Assembly (NCBI GenBank): GCA_001797275.1
Contig: MGOY01000028.1
Coordinates: 1 to 64,000, forward strand
DNA: 64,000 nucleotides
Reading direction: 5' to 3'
DNA from: Clostridiales bacterium GWF2_38_85
Lineage (GTDB): Bacteria; Bacillota; Clostridia; Oscillospirales; CAG-382
Under the pieces are notes generated by a model that was not told the DNA's origin, ran no database searches, and worked only from the letters and a program-made list of their open reading frames with translations. Positions 5,282 through 64,000 of the stretch are shown one piece after another (position 1 is the stretch's first letter; each line of letters begins with the position of its first letter). The translations under genes were made by a program, and so were the position numbers.

Positions 5282-5917
5282 ATGCAACTTTATATTATCA
5301 GGCACGGAGATCCGGATTATGCAAACGACACACTGACCGAATACGGGTGGGAGCAAGCAAGAGAGCTTGCAAAGCGAATGGCTGCCGTAAACCCGGACAG
5401 AATATATTCATCCCCACGCGGCAGGGCAAAAGCTACGGCGCAACCCGCCTGCGAGCTGTTGAATATGCAGTATACAGTTGAGGACTGGACAACCGAAAGC
5501 ATGGATTACATGCAATATCCTGATTTGACTGATCCCGACACGATAAAAAAGGGCTGGAATTCGAGCTTTGCCGAAGGTGTTCATGACTTTGAGTATTTTG
5601 TAACAACTGAGAGGGCTGACGCTCTCGATGAGATGATGAGTTGTTCGGATGAATTTCTCGAAAGGCATGGATATAAAAAAGAAGGCTTGTATTATCGTGC
5701 TGTGAAACCTAACGATGAGAAGATAGCTGTTTTTTGTCACGGTGGTTTCGGCGGTGCTTGGATATCATACCTGCTATCACTTCCACCGGCAATGGGTTGG
5801 ATGCACCTTGCACTCAATACGACCTCGGTTACAAAATTCGTGTTCGAAAACAGAGAGAACGGGTTCACATTTCCCCGATGTGTTTATCTCGGTGATACAT
5901 CACATTTGAAGAAATAA
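5282..5917 (+). CDS. Histidine phosphatase family protein
   Basis: 211 residues. The N-terminal YIIRHGDPDY contains the RHG signature, with the phospho-accepting His at residue 8. A second catalytic His lies in FCHGGFGG at about 153, as in phosphoglycerate-mutase-like phosphatases. Arg in YSSPRGRAK (about 46) fits the phosphate pocket. The region between the motifs is longer than in the smallest members. It is probably a cytosolic phosphatase of unknown substrate. The start at 5282 follows a GGAGA site, 27 bp after the broken DUF5131 gene. Confidence 0.85.
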   Translation: MQLYIIRHGDPDYANDTLTEYGWEQARELAKRMAAVNPDRIYSSPRGRAKATAQPACELLNMQYTVEDWTTESMDYMQYPDLTDPDTIKKGWNSSFAEGVHDFEYFVTTERADALDEMMSCSDEFLERHGYKKEGLYYRAVKPNDEKIAVFCHGGFGGAWISYLLSLPPAMGWMHLALNTTSVTKFVFENRENGFTFPRCVYLGDTSHLKK

Positions 5918-55593: not shown

Positions 55594-57405
55594 TTACTTT
55601 CTTATTGAATTTGCGACAGCAGCCAGAGTAACACCCACATCCGCAATAACCGCAAGCCACATGCTTGTCAAACCCAATGCTCCCAGCAAAAGTATAATTG
55701 TTTTGACACCTAATGCAAAAACAATGTTCTGTTTTGCTCTGAACAGTGTTCTTCGAGACAACTTTATTGCTTCTGGTATTTTTTTGAGATCGTCATCAAG
55801 GATAACCACATCAGCTGCTTCTATTGCAGCATCCGAACCAATGGCACCCATAGCAATACCGACATCGGCTTCAATCAATACAGGTGCATCATTTATGCCA
55901 TCACCCACAAAGACTGTGATACCTTCCTTACATAGTTCCTTAACATTTTCAACTTTATCCTGCGGAAGTAATCTGCTGAACACCGAAGTAATTTTAAGCT
56001 GTCTGGCTAATTTTTCAACCGGTGTTTTATCATCGCCGCTGAGTATTGATATACTCTTTATATTAAGTGCTGAAACAGCTGTTATTGCATCTACAGCATC
56101 AGCCTTTATACTGTCAGCAACCTCAATAAAACCCTTATATACACCATCTACAATGACATAGACTCCTGTTCTATAATTATGGTGATTCAGGTTCAGCTCC
56201 GGAATAAGCTTTTTGTTACCTACAGATACAGTTTTATTGTCAACTTTTGCTATGATACCTCTACCTGCAACTTCAATCACATCAGTTACCCTCGACAAGT
56301 TGATGTGTTTGTTTGCTGCAACAATGCTTTTTGCAATAGGATGATTTGAGTTGGCTTCAGCATGAGCGGCAAGATCAAGAAGTTCGGACTCTTTTATATT
56401 ATTCGTTTCAATATTTGTTACTTCGAAAATTCCTTTTGTAAGAGTTCCTGTTTTGTCAAATGCAAAGTTGACTGCTTCGGAAAGGTTCTCGATTGTTATA
56501 CTTCCTTTAAGCAGAATGCCTTTTTGCGATGCTCTGCCTATTCCTGCGAAGAATGCCAGCGGCACAGACACAACTAAAGCACAGGGACATGAGATTACAA
56601 GGAATATCAGCGACCTTCTCAACCATTCGTTGAAGCTGTCGAATCCAAATATAAATGTTGGTATGATTGTCAACAGTACAGCAAGAAGCACTACTATCGG
56701 AGTATAGATACGTGAAAACTTTGAAATCAAGTGATCGGCTTTTGCTTTGTTCTTCTTAGAATTTTCAACAAGATCGATGATTTTCGCAGCAAAACTTTCT
56801 GTAAACAATTTTGTAGAACGCACTTTTATCACACCATCAAGGTTGATAGTTCCTGCAAGAATTTCATTTCCTGGTTCGATATACTTTGGTAATGATTCAC
56901 CTGTCAATGCTGAGGTGTCTATGGATGACATTCCATCTGTAACAATACCGTCAAGTGCAACACGTTCACCGGGTCTAACAATAAATAAATCTCCAATTTT
57001 AGCAGTCTCAGCTTTCGTTAATATTACATTGTAACCATCGAACAAATTAATTGTCTCAGGTCGGATGTTTATAAGTTGATTGATAGAAGCTTTTGATTTA
57101 TCTATTGCATAGTCTTCGAGATATTCACCTATACGGAAAAACAGCATAACTGCAACAGCTTCCGGATATTCTCCTATAAAAAATGCTCCGAGAGTTGCTA
57201 TTGTCATTAATGTATTTTCACTGAATAGATCACCACTAATTGCTTTTTTTACTCCGTCTTTAATAACTCTGAATCCAAAAATCAAGTACAGTATAAGGTA
57301 AAGAATCAACGTTTGTCTGTCAGGAAGATAAATAAAAAATAAAAATATATACAAAGCAATTGCAAGCAGAACCATAATCAATTTAAAAGTGTTTTTTGTA
57401 TTCAT
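55594..57405 (-). CDS. Heavy-metal P1B-type ATPase (Cd/Zn/Pb class)
   Basis: 603 residues from the ATG at 57405. GTG at 57423 would also be in frame. There is no N-terminal HMA domain. Features in order: paired helices, MLFFRIGEYLE, TGES phosphatase motif (ALTGESLP), the metal-binding SCPCALVVSVP, DKTGTLTKG phosphorylation site, HPIAKS and VGDGINDAPVL. CPC with the C-terminal helices fits the Zn/Cd/Pb exporters of the CadA/ZntA type. It overlaps no more than the end of the arsR gene, forming a two-gene efflux operon. Confidence 0.93.
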   Translation of the reverse strand: MNTKNTFKLIMVLLAIALYIFLFFIYLPDRQTLILYLILYLIFGFRVIKDGVKKAISGDLFSENTLMTIATLGAFFIGEYPEAVAVMLFFRIGEYLEDYAIDKSKASINQLINIRPETINLFDGYNVILTKAETAKIGDLFIVRPGERVALDGIVTDGMSSIDTSALTGESLPKYIEPGNEILAGTINLDGVIKVRSTKLFTESFAAKIIDLVENSKKNKAKADHLISKFSRIYTPIVVLLAVLLTIIPTFIFGFDSFNEWLRRSLIFLVISCPCALVVSVPLAFFAGIGRASQKGILLKGSITIENLSEAVNFAFDKTGTLTKGIFEVTNIETNNIKESELLDLAAHAEANSNHPIAKSIVAANKHINLSRVTDVIEVAGRGIIAKVDNKTVSVGNKKLIPELNLNHHNYRTGVYVIVDGVYKGFIEVADSIKADAVDAITAVSALNIKSISILSGDDKTPVEKLARQLKITSVFSRLLPQDKVENVKELCKEGITVFVGDGINDAPVLIEADVGIAMGAIGSDAAIEAADVVILDDDLKKIPEAIKLSRRTLFRAKQNIVFALGVKTIILLLGALGLTSMWLAVIADVGVTLAAVANSIRK

Positions 57406-57412
57406 AAATTGC

Positions 57413-57802
57413 CTATTTTTCACACAAATGAATTATTCCGAGCGCCATAATACTACTTACATGCTCATCTGCAAGCGAATAGATAATAGACTTGCCACTC
57501 CTGCGATAACGCACCAGCTTACTTTGCTTAAGTATTTTAAGCTGATGAGATACTGCGCTTTGCGATACCTCGATTTTTTCTGCTATATCACAGACACATC
57601 TCTCACCACCAATTAACGAATGCAGGATGCTGATTCTTGTACTGTCTGCAAAAACACTAAAGAACTCAGCCAAATTCAAAAGTTGTTCTTCTGTCAATTT
57701 TTCATCACTGTCCTGTTGTTTGTAAAAGCAGTCCTGATTTAGTTTACAGCTTTTTCTGTGTTCGATATCATATGCGCATTTTTCTATATTTCTGCAATCC
57801 AT
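57413..57802 (-). CDS. ArsR/SmtB-family metal-responsive repressor
   Basis: 129 residues. The winged helix contains the metal motif ERCVCDIAEKI (Cys69, Cys71) and VSQSAVSHQLKILKQSKLVRYRRSG. An unusual N-terminal extension has Cys3, Cys9, Cys19 and Cys25 plus His, resembling the extra Cys of CadC-type Pb/Cd sensors. It likely represses itself and the ATPase gene, released by Cd, Pb or Zn. A consensus promoter with the palindrome ATATG-AG-CATAT lies upstream. Confidence 0.92.
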   Translation of the reverse strand: MDCRNIEKCAYDIEHRKSCKLNQDCFYKQQDSDEKLTEEQLLNLAEFFSVFADSTRISILHSLIGGERCVCDIAEKIEVSQSAVSHQLKILKQSKLVRYRRSGKSIIYSLADEHVSSIMALGIIHLCEK

Positions 57803-57943: not shown

Positions 57944-58108
57944 TTAGTCTTCGACAGGCTCAAAATCTTCTTTTCCAGCCGAACAAATCGGGCACACCCA
58001 ATCCTCCGGGATATCTTCGAATGCAGTACTCGGAGCAATTCCACCATCCGGATCTCCATCTTTGGGATTATAAATGTAGCCGCATACAGTGCATCTGTAA
58101 AGTTTCAT
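57944..58108 (-). CDS. Rubredoxin
   Basis: 54 residues from the ATG at 58108, chosen because AAAGGATGG lies about nine bases upstream. Earlier in-frame ATGs do not have one. Two iron-binding pairs are [10 protein letters not shown] and [11 protein letters not shown], with the [17 protein letters not shown] core typical of rubredoxins. It carries single electrons, often to oxygen- or peroxide-detoxifying enzymes in anaerobes. It is a single gene. Confidence 0.96.
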
Positions 58109-58257
58109 ATTTACAACCATCCTTTCCACCACAATATAAAGTGTTAATTTAGTTTACCGCTTCATTGGTTACAGGTCAGCCTGATGTTGTACCTGCTTTT
58201 CTATTATATAATGTATTTATATAAAATTCAAGAGCTAAATGAACTACACAATAAAAT

Positions 58258-59832
58258 TTATTTATTATTCAACTCTGCATACTGTAGCATATTTCGGCAA
58301 AAGAACATAGCAAGCATTGAAACCAGGATATTTGTTATTGCCATTGCAAGCATGACGGTTACTTCTCCGCTGATTGTTATCAACCCAAGTAAAGTAAGAA
58401 TGCTTCCTGATATTATGCCCGGTATAGCCATAACCATTACTGCTATAATAAAAATCAGATATGTTCTGACTTTAGATGTAACTGTACCGAACAAACGTCC
58501 AATTACGATAAATGCTGCTGATAATACAATTGAAAAGGATATACGCAGAAGTATACACACCAGTATCTCTGCAGGAGTAGCACTGACAATTATACCTGCC
58601 GGAACAAAAATTATTATCGCTTCAATAACAAATCCTATAAGATTTGCTCGCAGGTTATTTATTAGCTTCATGAATGACGGTTCGGGAACAAGATAAATAT
58701 ATTGCTTGGTGAGCTCTTTTGGAAATCTGCCAAGTGAAATACTGAATAGTTGCATGTAAACCGAGAACGAAACAACCGGAATTATGCCGGAATCACGCAT
58801 AAAAAATGCGAAAATGATTGAAGCTGCAACAAATATGAATGAAATTTTACTTATAAAGAACATATTACCTCTTCGGTTCTCAATCAAATGTTTATAGTAA
58901 AATGCGTCTGCACCCCAACCTTTATCAAACCCTATTTTGCCGACTTTAATTTTCTCAGGTAATGCTTCAACTTTAGTACCTTCTTTCCTGGCTGTAATTG
59001 CAGAGTATGTTATTTCTGCAGTTTTTAATACATCCTCATAAAAATCAGGATTTGAGATTGACATAACAATAACAACAGCAATAACATAAATCAGTATTAG
59101 TCCCAGTCCTAAAAGAAAATCAACAAGTGATGAATTTACTGCACCGGAAAAGATAGAAGAGCACCATCCGCTGACCGGAAATAATTTTGCATACAAACTG
59201 TTAACTGCTTCTATTGTTCTCGAAAGCATGTTTGCCTGGTCGGTCAATACATAAATAAGAATAGCTGCCAATGGTAAAATAATAATCGAATAGAATATTA
59301 CTTTTGCGATTTTACGTCGTTTCCCATCACCGTTTATCAATGAATATATAAACATTGCTGTAAGCTGCGCCAGAAACAGACTGACACCGTAACATAAAAC
59401 TATTATTAAAAGTTCGACGAATGAGATACCGTAATTGTTGTGCATCCAGGCATACTGGAAGAAGATGAAAAGCCCCATTAAAGATGAGAGACCGAGCTGT
59501 TGTATCAGACCGTAAAAAAGCACCTGTTGAGGTTTTACAGGCATAGGGAAAATTAGATTGACATCCTGCATTCTGAATATGCTGCCACCATTAGAAAGTC
59601 CACTTTTGGCAACGAGTATAAACATCAGAGTTATAAATCCAAACACAATTGCATACAGTTCACTGATATCACGGTAATTTTGTTCTTCGCTAAGCTTTTG
59701 AGAACCTATAAGTGTCGTACTCATTAAAATTATTATAAAAATAAAATAAATAAGTTTACCGGGACTTTTAAACAGTTGTTTTATTGAGTTTCTAAGTTTT
59801 CTGCTAAATAAATAAAGAAATGCACTGTTCAT
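58258..59832 (-). CDS. ABC-2-like exporter permease (putative ABC_export family)
   Basis: 524 residues with about twelve hydrophobic segments and a loop of polar sequence (about 270-310). It resembles putative ABC exporter permeases (large DUF-type, about 520 residues). The start overlaps the ATPase stop by four bases, so the two form one transporter. Substrate unknown; lantibiotic, lipid or signal export are possible. Confidence 0.85.
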   Translation of the reverse strand: MNSAFLYLFSRKLRNSIKQLFKSPGKLIYFIFIIILMSTTLIGSQKLSEEQNYRDISELYAIVFGFITLMFILVAKSGLSNGGSIFRMQDVNLIFPMPVKPQQVLFYGLIQQLGLSSLMGLFIFFQYAWMHNNYGISFVELLIIVLCYGVSLFLAQLTAMFIYSLINGDGKRRKIAKVIFYSIIILPLAAILIYVLTDQANMLSRTIEAVNSLYAKLFPVSGWCSSIFSGAVNSSLVDFLLGLGLILIYVIAVVIVMSISNPDFYEDVLKTAEITYSAITARKEGTKVEALPEKIKVGKIGFDKGWGADAFYYKHLIENRRGNMFFISKISFIFVAASIIFAFFMRDSGIIPVVSFSVYMQLFSISLGRFPKELTKQYIYLVPEPSFMKLINNLRANLIGFVIEAIIIFVPAGIIVSATPAEILVCILLRISFSIVLSAAFIVIGRLFGTVTSKVRTYLIFIIAVMVMAIPGIISGSILTLLGLITISGEVTVMLAMAITNILVSMLAMFFCRNMLQYAELNNK

Positions 59833-60536
59833 TTTCTATTACCCTTACCTTCGGTTATTTCAAAGAACAGCTCTTCAAGTGAATGTGTATTGCTGTCATC
59901 GTGATTATTCTGCATTGTAGCTGCGAAGCTGCCATTCACCATTATATGAGCGATGTCCCAATAATCCTCGACACTGTCTATCATATGAGTGCTGATTAAC
60001 ACCGATGCACCGTTTTTCTTCAGCTCAACAAAAACTTGTTTCAATTCCTTTATTGCATGCGGATCAAGACCAACCATTGGTTCGTCGAAAATAATTATTT
60101 TTGGTCTATGAACAAGCGCACAGCAAATAGAGAGTTTTTGATTCATTCCTTTTGACAGCTCTTTACCAAGTTTGTCTTTTTTATCCCAAAGCTCAAATCG
60201 CTCCAAAAGTTTTTGACCATAACCGTCGTCATCTATGCGATATGCACGCCTGGTAAATTCCAAATGCTCTGATACCGTCAATAAATCATAAACCGCCGGT
60301 ATTTCGGGTATGTAGCCCAGCAATTTTTTTGCATCAATAGACTTGTTAGGTATTTTATCGATAAAAATCGAACCTTTGAATCTGAGCAAGCCTGCAATAC
60401 ATTTTATGATTGTTGATTTCCCTGCACCATTCGGTCCAAGCAGAACTGCTATTTGTCCGTCATCAATATTAAAGGATATATTGTAATTGGCGATCGTCTT
60501 ACCATAATTTTTCGTTACATTGTTTATTTGAAGCAT
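59829..60536 (-). CDS. ABC transporter ATP-binding protein
   Basis: 235 residues. Walker A GPNGAGKST, signature LSKGMNQKLS (variant of LSGGQ), Walker B IIIFDEPMVGLDP and His switch STHMID. The variant signature is common in ABC-2 exporters. It is transcribed from the promoter at 60567-60595 and coupled to the permease. Confidence 0.93.
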   Translation of the reverse strand: MLQINNVTKNYGKTIANYNISFNIDDGQIAVLLGPNGAGKSTIIKCIAGLLRFKGSIFIDKIPNKSIDAKKLLGYIPEIPAVYDLLTVSEHLEFTRRAYRIDDDGYGQKLLERFELWDKKDKLGKELSKGMNQKLSICCALVHRPKIIIFDEPMVGLDPHAIKELKQVFVELKKNGASVLISTHMIDSVEDYWDIAHIMVNGSFAATMQNNHDDSNTHSLEELFFEITEGKGNRK

Positions 60537-60566: not shown

Positions 60567-60595
60567 ATATTAACATATTTAACCGTATATGTCAA
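60567..60595 (-). promoter_or_regulatory. Promoter of the ABC-2 exporter operon
   Basis: Minus strand TTGACA (complement of 60590-60595), 17-bp spacer, TAATAT (complement of 60567-60572), directly beside the preceding terminator. Confidence 0.65.
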
Positions 60596-60625
60596 GAAAA
60601 ACTGCCTTTAATCAGGCAGTTTTTC
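60596..60625 (-). terminator. Terminator of the VTC/DUF4956 locus
   Basis: A 12-bp stem GAAAAACTGCCT/AGGCAGTTTTTC with a six-base loop. The stem's own terminal TTTTT forms the start of the tract on the minus strand. It begins 19 bp past the stop at 60645. Confidence 0.82.
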
Positions 60626-60644
60626 CAATAAAGTTATATTGTAC

Positions 60645-61622
60645 TTAGGGTAAAATAGACGTAATGCTTCGAGCTTCTGAAACACTGCCATCTTCTTTTA
60701 CATAATAAACGATTGTTTTATCATTAGAATCATCTTTTTCTTTATAAAAAATCATGATACCGCTTAAAGTTAATATATTATTTTTAATGTATTGATTATT
60801 TGTAGAATATGCAAGATTTGGATCTTCAGTTATGATTATTGCTGCATTAAAGTATAGTGTATATTTTTTATTACTCTTGAAATCATCCCATTTTTGTGCA
60901 TCCATTATAGAATATTTTCCAGAGTAGATATTTGTATAGCCAATAACATTATATCCATCAGTTGTTGGGATTTCAATTCGTTTATTACTTGAAACATTTC
61001 CGGCTTCTATTTGCTTTTCAAGATAACCATTCCAGTAATCAGGAGTATATTCGGAAGCACTTACCTTCCATTTGTTTTTTGTATTTAAGAAATCAGAATA
61101 ACTTATATTACTGCTTTTAATAGATTTTATAAGCTTTTTAAATACTGAATTTTCTTCAATTGATTTTCTGTAAGCATCGATTCCTGACATTAAAGCATTT
61201 AAAAAATCCGCTCTGTCTATAACTGCATCTTTTAATTTATTGCAATAATTTATTGCTGAATCATATTCAGCGTTTTTATATGCTTCATTCATTTTATCTC
61301 TGTAGAAGGGTACGATATATCTGCTTTTATCTTTTGTAGTCCGATCACCGAAAAAAGCATTTCTTCTTTCTGTCAGATCCTTTAGAAATGACAATACATC
61401 AAGCAATTCACTTCCTGATAAATCGTTGTTAACAATTTCGCAAGCAAAATCATCAAGTGTTTTATTGTAAATTTCATATGAATCCTTATATGTATTGTGA
61501 TAGTAATCTACATAGTCATTGTATACTATCATATAATCATCACGAGATGAAGCCGCTAAAGCAAATGATCCTACTGATACTGTAATAATAACCGCGAGTA
61601 TAGCTGATAATATTTTTTTCAT
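60645..61622 (-). CDS. Secreted hypothetical protein
   Basis: 325 residues. A signal peptide (about 1-23, ends FALAA) precedes a long helical, Tyr/Asp/Lys-rich region (about 28-175, e.g. DYVDYYHNTYKDSYEIYNK). A beta-rich C-terminal part follows. No family recognised. It is the last gene of the VTC-DUF4956-DUF4832 locus, 18 bp after the DUF4832 gene, so its secretion and position suggest a partner of those surface proteins. Confidence 0.72.
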   Translation of the reverse strand: MKKILSAILAVIITVSVGSFALAASSRDDYMIVYNDYVDYYHNTYKDSYEIYNKTLDDFACEIVNNDLSGSELLDVLSFLKDLTERRNAFFGDRTTKDKSRYIVPFYRDKMNEAYKNAEYDSAINYCNKLKDAVIDRADFLNALMSGIDAYRKSIEENSVFKKLIKSIKSSNISYSDFLNTKNKWKVSASEYTPDYWNGYLEKQIEAGNVSSNKRIEIPTTDGYNVIGYTNIYSGKYSIMDAQKWDDFKSNKKYTLYFNAAIIITEDPNLAYSTNNQYIKNNILTLSGIMIFYKEKDDSNDKTIVYYVKEDGSVSEARSITSILP

Positions 61623-61640: not shown

Positions 61641-63053
61641 TTAATTTGATTTATAGATAATATATAATTTGTCGACTTTCTCGTTATCTGATATCAACAT
61701 CACGGCCGGTTCTTTTGTCATGGGGTCAATTATTCCGACACAGAGCTTTATTTCTGAGTTTTCATACAGAGATAAATCAATTATGTTTTTTGTTGTCTTT
61801 TCAGTGCCAGGTAATAAAGTGGATAATTCCAGTTTTGTTTCGTATTTATCGAGAATATTGTTATCATTGTCGAGTACATACAGATATACCGGCCAATCCC
61901 AATACATTGGTGCTACACCGGTATTAGACCAGGTGATTTCAACTTTTTCCATTGATGACCATTTGGATTTTGTAACGACTGATTTCGTTACATTATATCT
62001 GTACCCCATATTGAATAGGACCTTGTCTATACCTTGCTTGAACAATTCATCACTCTCGTTTTTCAATTCAGGATATTTTGGTCCTAAGAAGGTAACATGA
62101 GATTCTGAAAGCATTTGAATTGTCTGGTCTATATTGACTTTCAACAACCAGTCCATTGATAATGAGCTGGTGAATTCACCACCGATAGGAGCTGTTTTCC
62201 ATGCATCCATCATTGGTACCAGCGCATCAAGCTCCTCAGCTTGAGTATAATCGCCGCCGTATTGCAACCATTCATTCCAACTATCAGTGCTATCGGGATC
62301 GCCTGTCATGTCATTATACAAGCCAAAACCATATTCTGCTGCTGCTTTGAAGGGTCTTCTCATAAGCAGCTTTGCATTCGGGAAAGCATCCGGATAAGGT
62401 TCTATATACTTAAGTCTTGTTGTCTCATTAGGAATTCTTATTATACCGCCTTCATAATAAACATGCCATTCTCCCCAATGTCCAAGACTACCGAGTTGCA
62501 CATAGCTGACAAAATCATCGTTGCCAAAGTATTCACCGAGTGCCTTTATTGCTTTTGCATGATATTCTATAAATATCTCATTATTGTAGTTTGGTGAATA
62601 CCCCATACCGTATTCAATATCGTAATTTGTACCGTCGCCACTTGTTTTCTCATACAGCCAATCAGGGATATCTATATGTTCTTCGTCGGTGGGATAGTCA
62701 CATTGAAAGCGCAATACTGCATGCTTACCAAGGCTGCGCCAGTATTCAATGTTATTATCTATTGCAATTTGTTCGAACGCATATAAACCTTCTTCAGGTT
62801 CAAACTCTCTGAAAGTAATATCGATATAAACAAGAGAATTATTGCCTACATCAGTTTTACTGGTAGCATCAGTTGCAAAACCCATAAGGGGATTATAATA
62901 TATATCATTTGTAACTTGAAATTCTGTTGAAATTTTATTTCCAAACAGCCACATAGCATCCTCCCTTGTAAAGAAAATAATGGCGGCACTTATCATAATA
63001 GCGATTATCAGAACAAGTGCGATAATAATAACAATGAATTTTCTATTAGCCAT
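61641..63053 (-). CDS. DUF4832-type, glycosidase-like membrane-anchored protein
   Basis: 470 residues from the ATG at 63053, which has GGAGAA upstream and overlaps the DUF4956 gene by eight bases. One N-terminal helix (about 5-28) anchors an extracytoplasmic TIM-barrel-like domain: YYNPLMGFA, RSLGKHAVLRFQCDYPTD, VQLGSLGHWGEWHV and LMRRPFKAAAEYG, the pattern of DUF4832 proteins. A C-terminal beta domain (about 355-465, VEITWSNTGVAPMYW) follows. It probably binds or processes a surface polysaccharide. Confidence 0.82.
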   Translation of the reverse strand: MANRKFIVIIIALVLIIAIMISAAIIFFTREDAMWLFGNKISTEFQVTNDIYYNPLMGFATDATSKTDVGNNSLVYIDITFREFEPEEGLYAFEQIAIDNNIEYWRSLGKHAVLRFQCDYPTDEEHIDIPDWLYEKTSGDGTNYDIEYGMGYSPNYNNEIFIEYHAKAIKALGEYFGNDDFVSYVQLGSLGHWGEWHVYYEGGIIRIPNETTRLKYIEPYPDAFPNAKLLMRRPFKAAAEYGFGLYNDMTGDPDSTDSWNEWLQYGGDYTQAEELDALVPMMDAWKTAPIGGEFTSSLSMDWLLKVNIDQTIQMLSESHVTFLGPKYPELKNESDELFKQGIDKVLFNMGYRYNVTKSVVTKSKWSSMEKVEITWSNTGVAPMYWDWPVYLYVLDNDNNILDKYETKLELSTLLPGTEKTTKNIIDLSLYENSEIKLCVGIIDPMTKEPAVMLISDNEKVDKLYIIYKSN

Positions 63054-63729
63054 AATATTCTCCGTCATACTGTATAACAGTAATATCTTCGACTCCCTGT
63101 ATTTCCTTCATTTTTTCCACAAAGCTCATGCTGTCGCCTTTAAGATATATTTCGAGTGCCAATTCATACAAATTCTTTTTTGTAGTTTTAGATTTCAGGC
63201 GATATTTTTGTCTGCCCATAGCGATTTTGATTTTATCTTCGGTAAAATCACCGGTAAAATGAATGATTGCGATGTAAACCTTACCTTTAAATGACGTCTT
63301 TGACATGATAAGTATTACTAAAAATACTATTACCCATGATATACCTGCCAATGAATACATCTTTGCTCCGGCAATAATACCTGATGTGATTGCCCAGAAC
63401 AAATAAAGTAAATCAAGAGGATCTTTTACAGCTGTTCTGAAACGAACGATACTCAACGCACCAACCATACCCAGAGAAATAACAATGTTTGTGCTGATTG
63501 CCATCGTAACCGCAGCGGTTATAACTGTCATACCGATTAACGTTATCGAAAGAGCTCTGTTGTAAACTACACCGCGATAGAATTTCGTATAAATCAGATT
63601 AATCATAAAACCAACAAACAATGCAACTAACAATACAGTTAATGCGGTCAGTGCATAATCTGTTGTAAATGTATCTACGAAATTCTGAAGTTCAAGTACC
63701 GATTGTTTTATAATATCTTTTGCACTCAT
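63046..63729 (-). CDS. DUF4956 membrane protein
   Basis: 227 residues. Three or four membrane helices (about 30-150) are separated by a conserved MVGALSIVRFRTAVKDPLDLLYLFWAI segment that identifies DUF4956. The C-terminal soluble part (about 150-227) is predicted alpha/beta. DUF4956 genes commonly accompany VTC-domain polyphosphate-polymerase-like proteins, and do so here. They may form a membrane complex. It lies 17 bp after the VTC gene. Confidence 0.9.
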   Translation of the reverse strand: MSAKDIIKQSVLELQNFVDTFTTDYALTALTVLLVALFVGFMINLIYTKFYRGVVYNRALSITLIGMTVITAAVTMAISTNIVISLGMVGALSIVRFRTAVKDPLDLLYLFWAITSGIIAGAKMYSLAGISWVIVFLVILIMSKTSFKGKVYIAIIHFTGDFTEDKIKIAMGRQKYRLKSKTTKKNLYELALEIYLKGDSMSFVEKMKEIQGVEDITVIQYDGEYYG

Positions 63730-63746
63730 AATTTGACCCTTCTTTT

Positions 63747-64000
63747 TTATATATTCTTTTTTAGCAACGGATTAAATGAAGCTGCACGCTCATAACAATA
63801 AGTAAATTTTGAAAATGCTTGAAAATCACCAGACGGAATCGGAAGCATTTCTTTTATTATCTGAGGTAAAAATGAAGTAAATTTAACTTCGAGAATCAGT
63901 TTGCCCGGTTCAAGTACATAAATTGACGGTAGTTCAGAATTGAACACATCTTTGAATAATACTGTCGATCGAACATCATGATCAAAGGTTATACGTACAT
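63747..64000 (-). CDS. VTC-domain protein (polyphosphate polymerase-like), partial
   Basis: The minus-strand frame is open from the window edge to the stop at 63747, giving about 83 C-terminal residues. The beginning at the edge reads VRITFDHDVRSTV, then LEPGKLILEVKFTSFLPQIIKEML and a FSKFTYC end. This matches the end of VTC tunnel domains, where R-x-T-F-D and E-V-K-F are conserved. The family makes polyphosphate or uses triphosphate substrates. The N-terminal part lies outside the window. Confidence 0.88.
   Translation of the reverse strand, partial: VRITFDHDVRSTVLFKDVFNSELPSIYVLEPGKLILEVKFTSFLPQIIKEMLPIPSGDFQAFSKFTYCYERAASFNPLLKKNI

Follow-up and report, generated by a model that had tools for sequence, protein, structure and literature searches.

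A VTC-DUF4956-DUF4832 gene group of a Clostridia bacterium very probably forms the 3' end of a c-di-GMP-controlled Pel operon

Introduction

Pel is a sticky biofilm polysaccharide, which dedicated bacterial operons make, export and trim. Operons of the pelDEADAFG type were described in Gram-positive bacteria by Whitfield in 2020, together with the accessory genes cotH, a poly-phosphate polymerase gene, DUF4956 and DUF4832, which were found in streptococci and clostridia (PMC7112168). Riboswitches and Chloroflexi are both absent from the main text of that study. For relatives of the genes considered here, Pel synthesis, binding of c-di-GMP to PelD, and deacetylase and hydrolase activities have all been published, PelADA of B. 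cereus being a proven deacetylase (PMC13254593).

The accessory genes were studied in 2025 in Streptococcus intermedius, whose orthologues make a GalNAc-rich Pel (PMC12345266). In this species, loss of DUF4956 raised Pel production and loss of CotH lowered it, aggregation in artificial sputum medium fell in both mutants, and mutants of VTC and of the hydrolase displayed no aggregation phenotype. The purified DUF4832 protein, SIR_1591, dissolved Pel aggregates, as does the PelA hydrolase. The same study reported the CotH-VTC-DUF4956 arrangement as not found outside Pel (PMC12345266). Here we describe a related locus in a Clostridia bacterium that is known from a draft assembly alone, and whose operon we read from its sequence.

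Results

The four genes close a probable transcription unit of ~17 kb

The window, that is, the whole stretch of DNA that was analysed (64,000 nucleotides), comprises bases 1-64000 of contig 28 (assembly 2.83 Mb); the contig continues in L003, whose positions plus 60000 give contig positions. At the end of the window, all on the minus strand, lie the C-terminal third of a VTC gene (63747-64000; the full gene, 63747-64478 of the contig, encodes 243 aa; PF09359 E 2.2e-35), followed in the direction of transcription by genes for a DUF4956 membrane protein of 227 aa (63046-63729; PF16316 E 4.7e-10), a DUF4832 protein of 475 aa (61641-63068; PF16116 E 2.9e-21) and a secreted protein of 325 aa (60645-61622), which has a signal-like N-terminus and no family above cut-off. 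The successive spacings are 17 bp, -23 bp (an overlap) and 18 bp, which confirms the proposal of the sequence-only reading that the four genes form one tightly spaced operon; that reading covered 61641-64000, and the gene of the secreted protein, though named in it, lies outside this segment.

Behind the 325-aa gene we found an intrinsic terminator (60595-60626, minus strand) with a 13-bp hairpin, a 6-nt loop and a U-rich 3' side, folding at -19.4 kcal/mol (z -5.85, 0/200 shuffles as good). It is followed by a promoter-like site and an ABC pair, and so the operon ends with the 325-aa gene. The ABC transporter genes (58258-60536, minus strand; an exporter pair of a PF16962 permease, E 2.7e-115, and an ATPase) were considered as a part of the operon and ruled out by the terminator and promoter-like site in between; they form a separate transcription unit. 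Also on the minus strand are a small rubredoxin-like protein (57944-58132) and a heavy-metal P-type ATPase preceded by an ArsR/CadC-like regulator (55594-57802), all named from sequence.

The window edge cuts the operon inside VTC, and beyond it, on the 5' side, lie the rest of VTC and eight more operon genes. Read 5' to 3', the operon consists of a promoter, a c-di-GMP-I riboswitch, genes for a DivIVA-like protein, an HD-GYP protein, PelD, a PelE-like protein, PelADA, PelF, PelG, CotH, VTC, DUF4956, DUF4832 and the secreted 325-aa protein, and the terminator, extending over ~17 kb (contig 28, about 60.6-77.7 kb, minus strand). The spacing between the DivIVA-like and HD-GYP genes is 128 bp, which leaves room for a second promoter.

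The upstream genes encode a Pel machinery

Upstream of VTC, the genes encode CotH (589 aa), PelG (508 aa), PelF (488 aa) and a DUF2194/PelADA protein (604 aa), and further upstream a PelE-like (309 aa), a PelD-like (713 aa) and the HD-GYP protein (603 aa). PelF scored 314.6 bits against the NCBIfam equivalog NF038011 (cut-off 100) and PelG 418.4 bits against PF16933 (cut-off 29; E 4.8e-125). PelADA matched DUF2194 (PF09960) with an E of 3e-145, is 40% identical to the S. intermedius protein and carries FIDDFP and HGYNH, which, judging from the general pattern of such enzymes, would be its metal-binding Asp/His motifs. PelD has an epimerase-like N-terminal domain and bears an RxxD I-site in the form of RESD (R661/D664), followed by a degenerate GGDEF (DNGQI); in an alignment, the RxxD site was retained in Pel-locus PelDs wherever the domain was present. 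The PelE-like protein has a hydrophobic N-terminus and is 28.5% identical to S. intermedius PelE over 235 aa, with no Pfam family above cut-off. Every gene of the S. intermedius pel cluster is matched in the operon, at 25-52% identity. We therefore conclude, with a probability of roughly 90%, that a Gram-positive Pel operon of ~17 kb under c-di-GMP control ends, on its 3' side, with these four genes; its product, by analogy, is predicted to be a GalNAc-rich exopolysaccharide.

PelE and PelD are divergent from their streptococcal counterparts (25-28% identity), and so the exact polymer could differ, i.e., the operon could make a product that is related to Pel and built of another sugar or linkage. 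The epimerase-like domain of PelD would fit such a product, and the same doubt was raised for Roseburia loci (PMC7112168). Nevertheless, PelF lies threefold above its equivalog cut-off and is accompanied by PelADA, PelG and hydrolase proteins of the Pel type, and the polymer made by the S. intermedius orthologues is a GalNAc-rich Pel (PMC12345266), and so we regard a different polymer as very unlikely.

DUF4832 and CotH belong to a conserved Pel tail

The DUF4832 protein consists of an N-terminal hydrophobic segment (a membrane anchor), a TIM-barrel-like glycoside hydrolase region and a C-terminal DUF4832 domain, and its profile touches structures of the GH10, GH35 and GH42 types. Two glutamates, E200 (in GHWGEWH) and E298 (in GGE), were present in 88 of 88 DUF4832 proteins and are likely to be the acid pair of a TIM-barrel hydrolase. 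The protein is 39% identical to SIR_1591 over 458 aa, and as an apparent orthologue it is predicted to hydrolyse Pel. The S. intermedius protein being a demonstrated Pel-active glycoside hydrolase (PMC12345266), the earlier view that the roles of all the parts are uncertain is not supported.

CotH matched PF08757 (E 2.4e-67) and kept the N-x-D and W-D-x-D motifs; its D336 and D359 align with conserved Asp residues of a solved CotH, and are spaced like the B. subtilis CotH residues Asp228 and Asp251.

We then surveyed gene neighbourhoods by searching 84,980 species genomes with a profile of Pel-locus DUF4832 proteins and taking the best 80 loci. PelF or PelG was present in 67 of these, and DUF4956 lay within 100 bp of DUF4832 in 61 (in about 50 overlapping it, as here), a recurrence that argues against chance. 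PelF, PelG, CotH, VTC, DUF4956 and DUF4832 occurred together in 55/80, some of the rest being cut by contig ends, and the order D-E-A-F-G-CotH-VTC-DUF4956-DUF4832 was common to most of the 80 nearest relatives. The taxa included S. intermedius, S. anginosus, S. gordonii, S. sanguinis, Butyrivibrio, Blautia, Faecalibacterium and Chloroflexota assemblies. Thus, the linkage to DUF4832 suspected by the sequence-only reading is conserved, while the secreted protein belongs to this genome's locus only, a relative of it being found in 0 of the 80, which by that reading's own criterion speaks against this part of the association.

Variants of the locus were also seen. Three Chloroflexota loci (L108, L126, L142) carry VTC, DUF4956 and DUF4832, and in two cases PelF/PelG as well. 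In G049 (L052:5385-9064), an EAL/GGDEF protein and a GGDEF protein replace DUF4832 after DUF4956, as described for bifidobacteria. The Pel locus of G081 (L053:232-2301) has a second CotH, with a LysM domain, after DUF4956, and G111 (L054) also has two CotH genes.

The presence of CotH, a spore-coat kinase in Bacillus subtilis (PMC7821199), might along with the name VTC suggest a spore-coat system. We consider this extremely improbable, since streptococci, which form no spores, have these genes in an identical order, and since the leader carries a c-di-GMP riboswitch. The sequence-only reading had placed the system at the cell surface or the spore; the Pel genes upstream favour the former, and the occurrence of the tail in non-sporulating streptococci speaks against the latter (PMC7112168, PMC12345266). 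Its other suggestion, that a polyphosphate-polymerase-like enzyme is linked to a surface polymer, was right in outline, with Pel as the polymer system.

VTCs of Pel loci form a separate lineage

The VTC protein comprises the VTC domain alone, with no SPX domain and no hydrophobic segment, and its profile matches the crystal structure of yeast VTC4 (E 5.2e-12). The catalytic residues, whose loss would have spoken against the sequence-only reading, are retained: among 18 positions checked in 61 proteins, 14 were invariant and each of the other four was shared by 59 or 60. Arg264 and Arg266 of VTC4 correspond to R75 and R77, and the ATP-site and tunnel residues are conserved; the remaining positions are assigned to the VTC4 numbering by alignment. 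These two arginines of VTC4 are essential for polyphosphate synthesis (PMC8749416). Judging by its residues, the protein is probably a tunnel enzyme of the polyphosphate-polymerase type; with no SPX or membrane part, it is a VTC-domain protein and not a full VTC4-type subunit.

DUF4956 is predicted to have several membrane helices and a C-terminal ACT-like domain (AlphaFold2, pLDDT 77), for which Foldseek returned matches to ACT domains and to the C-terminal domain of MgtC. The idea that DUF4956 is the equivalent of the yeast VTC membrane domain is neither favoured nor disfavoured by these ACT-like matches, which concern the soluble part alone.

With or without CotH, the two proteins could instead work on their own, as a polyphosphate or surface module that shares no more than its location with the Pel genes. 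VTC-DUF4956 pairs are indeed far commoner than Pel: within the organism's own family (63 genomes), DUF4956 was present in 49 genomes and DUF4832 in 5, with PelG above its cut-off in 4. We sampled 41 DUF4956 loci that are remote from Pel genes; VTC adjoined DUF4956 in all those not truncated by a contig end, and within 5 kb there was Cthe_2159 in 22/41, CotH in 8/41 and neither in 11/41. These CotH proteins were counted by Pfam scans, as a profile trained on Pel-locus CotH proteins misses them (a false negative); L159, L162, L169, L170, L181, L182 and L186 are examples in which CotH accompanies VTC-DUF4956 with no Pel gene nearby. The eight CotH loci contradict the statement that this arrangement is not found outside Pel (PMC12345266). 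Several of the non-Pel CotH proteins beside VTC-DUF4956 bear lamin-tail or dockerin domains. The genome studied here also has a second VTC-DUF4956 pair on contig 30 (L004:8409-9853, within L004:6620-9853), adjoining a Cthe_2159 carbohydrate-binding, lipoprotein-like protein.

Against such independence, a likelihood tree of 107 VTCs grouped all 67 members of the Pel/DUF4832 locus set into a single clade (95/81; 0/500 shuffles) with the 40 others outside, so that the Pel module has a VTC lineage to itself. In addition, Clostridia, streptococci and some Chloroflexota all share one fixed gene order, and deletion of DUF4956 or CotH in S. intermedius alters Pel level and aggregation (PMC12345266). 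An independent module is thus unlikely, and we favour VTC, DUF4956 and CotH being an integral part of the Pel operon.

A predicted c-di-GMP riboswitch lies in the operon leader

The operon leader has a promoter of consensus sequence (TTGACA-17-TATAAT), and between it and the first gene lies a c-di-GMP-I riboswitch (contig 28, 77535-77644, i.e., L003:17535-17644, minus strand) that scored 64.5 bits, the gathering score being 35. A strong terminator follows, the 5' arm of which overlaps the 3' strand of the aptamer, and so binding of c-di-GMP should favour read-through; from this overlap, we infer that the riboswitch would act as an ON switch. Taken together with the PelD site and the HD-GYP enzyme, this suggests that c-di-GMP controls the operon at three levels.

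Class-I c-di-GMP riboswitches are rare in this genome, with only four copies in 2.8 Mb. One is in the Pel leader, one on contig 14 (see below), and the two remaining ones are on contig 42 (L204:3370-3458 and 5654-5751), where they precede an HD-GYP gene and a tad-pilus-like gene set (named from sequence). Among ten further Pel loci whose upstream sequence was scanned, G025, G043 (a GGC variant) and G221 have a class-I-type aptamer, and none was found in G049, G254, G111, G183, G081, G237 and G253. A literature search of incomplete coverage returned no publication tying a riboswitch to a Gram-positive pel operon.

The last gene encodes a member of a c-di-GMP-linked secreted family

The 325-aa protein has a signal peptide and a domain of ~150 aa that looks helical; AlphaFold2 run on its single sequence reached a pLDDT of 34 only. 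Three relatives, 41-42% identical over about 150 residues, were found on contig 14 of the same genome (a copy whose reading frame is interrupted near the N-terminus), in G025 (another species of the genus) and in G043 (another genus of the family), the latter two coming from a family-level search. Two of the relatives have a C-terminal match to a CBM_2 cellulose-binding domain, which exceeds the curated cut-off in one and narrowly misses it in the other; the C-terminal remainder of the 325-aa protein is unlike these CBM_2-like ends. A wider search in 391 genomes of the class returned only the organism's own two copies and matches at the level of the signal peptide, and so the family seems to be confined to this bacterial family.

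Each of the relatives is preceded by a c-di-GMP riboswitch, of class I on contig 14 (L065:8042-8142), class I in G025 (L066:6978-7074; 74 bp) and class II in G043 (L067:7494-7577; 347 bp). The 325-aa gene itself closes a riboswitch-led operon. All four members are therefore linked to c-di-GMP, through two riboswitch classes, which chance would hardly give.

It could be argued that the secreted protein is encoded next to the Pel genes by chance and plays no part in their function, given that it is absent from 80 of the 80 related loci and that its relatives lie elsewhere in their genomes. Its gene, however, belongs to the transcription unit, as it lies 18 bp after DUF4832 and the terminator comes only after it, and despite their absence from the Pel loci its relatives share c-di-GMP control: a riboswitch stands before each of the three, though the genome holds only four class-I copies, which makes a shared c-di-GMP regulon likely. 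On balance, we find an accidental association somewhat unlikely, though a serious contender, and prefer the view that c-di-GMP probably induces the 325-aa protein, as a component of the matrix or the cell surface.

Discussion

Gene content and order, catalytic residues, orthology, the riboswitch match and the terminators were observed directly in this locus; the activities in the source organism, and the roles of the accessory module and of the secreted protein, would by inference be as follows. Binding of c-di-GMP to the class-I riboswitch in the leader would prevent termination, and the operon would be transcribed; c-di-GMP would also bind the I-site of PelD, thereby switching on PelF, which would polymerise UDP-GalNAc. 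PelG would export the chain, PelADA would partly deacetylate it outside the cell, the membrane-anchored DUF4832 hydrolase may cut Pel for release or turnover, and the HD-GYP protein would lower c-di-GMP. VTC (cytosolic), DUF4956 (in the membrane) and CotH (outside, with a kinase fold) may together act as an accessory module that handles phosphate and adjusts how much Pel is made or how well it coheres. The lack of an aggregation phenotype in S. intermedius mutants of VTC or of the hydrolase (PMC12345266) counts against this scheme.

An extracellular CotH kinase has no ATP at its disposal. VTC and DUF4956 might make polyphosphate at the inner face of the membrane and pass it outside, where it would be a phosphate source for CotH or cross-link cationic Pel, and elsewhere the pair might serve Cthe_2159 surface proteins. 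This proposal is highly speculative and we give it a small chance; if true, the VTC-DUF4956 route would be a general bacterial way for phosphate to reach cell-surface polymers and proteins.

A puzzle of four genes thus becomes the end of a Pel operon, and the question is sharpened to why Pel operons contain a VTC-DUF4956-CotH module of their own lineage. The free-standing CotH-VTC-DUF4956 and Cthe_2159-VTC-DUF4956 loci allow this module to be studied apart from Pel. The operon further exposes a small secreted family, the other known members of which all lie behind c-di-GMP riboswitches.

Compared to the described Gram-positive pelDEADAFG operon (PMC7112168), the core and accessory genes and their order are alike, and clostridial species are already listed there; the Pel operon is hence of a known type, with a cotH-polyphosphate-polymerase-DUF4956-DUF4832 tail published in 2020. 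Here, in contrast, a riboswitch and DivIVA-like and HD-GYP genes precede PelD, and the secreted 325-aa gene follows DUF4832. New are the leader riboswitch, the c-di-GMP-linked secreted family, the separate VTC clade and the occurrence of CotH-VTC-DUF4956 outside Pel. Relative to SIR_1591-1594 of S. intermedius, the DUF4832, DUF4956, VTC and CotH proteins are 39%, 52%, 49% and 43% identical, respectively; streptococcal PelD is without the GGDEF domain and cannot bind c-di-GMP, whereas the PelD described here keeps the RxxD site. The VTC4-type catalytic domain and the tunnel residues are like those of yeast VTC, but the SPX and membrane parts are absent from the same protein and a separate DUF4956 membrane protein is encoded beside it. 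Finally, the contig 30 locus has the same adjacent VTC-DUF4956 pair, with Cthe_2159 instead of CotH as the third gene, and its VTC and that of the Pel operon fall in different clades.
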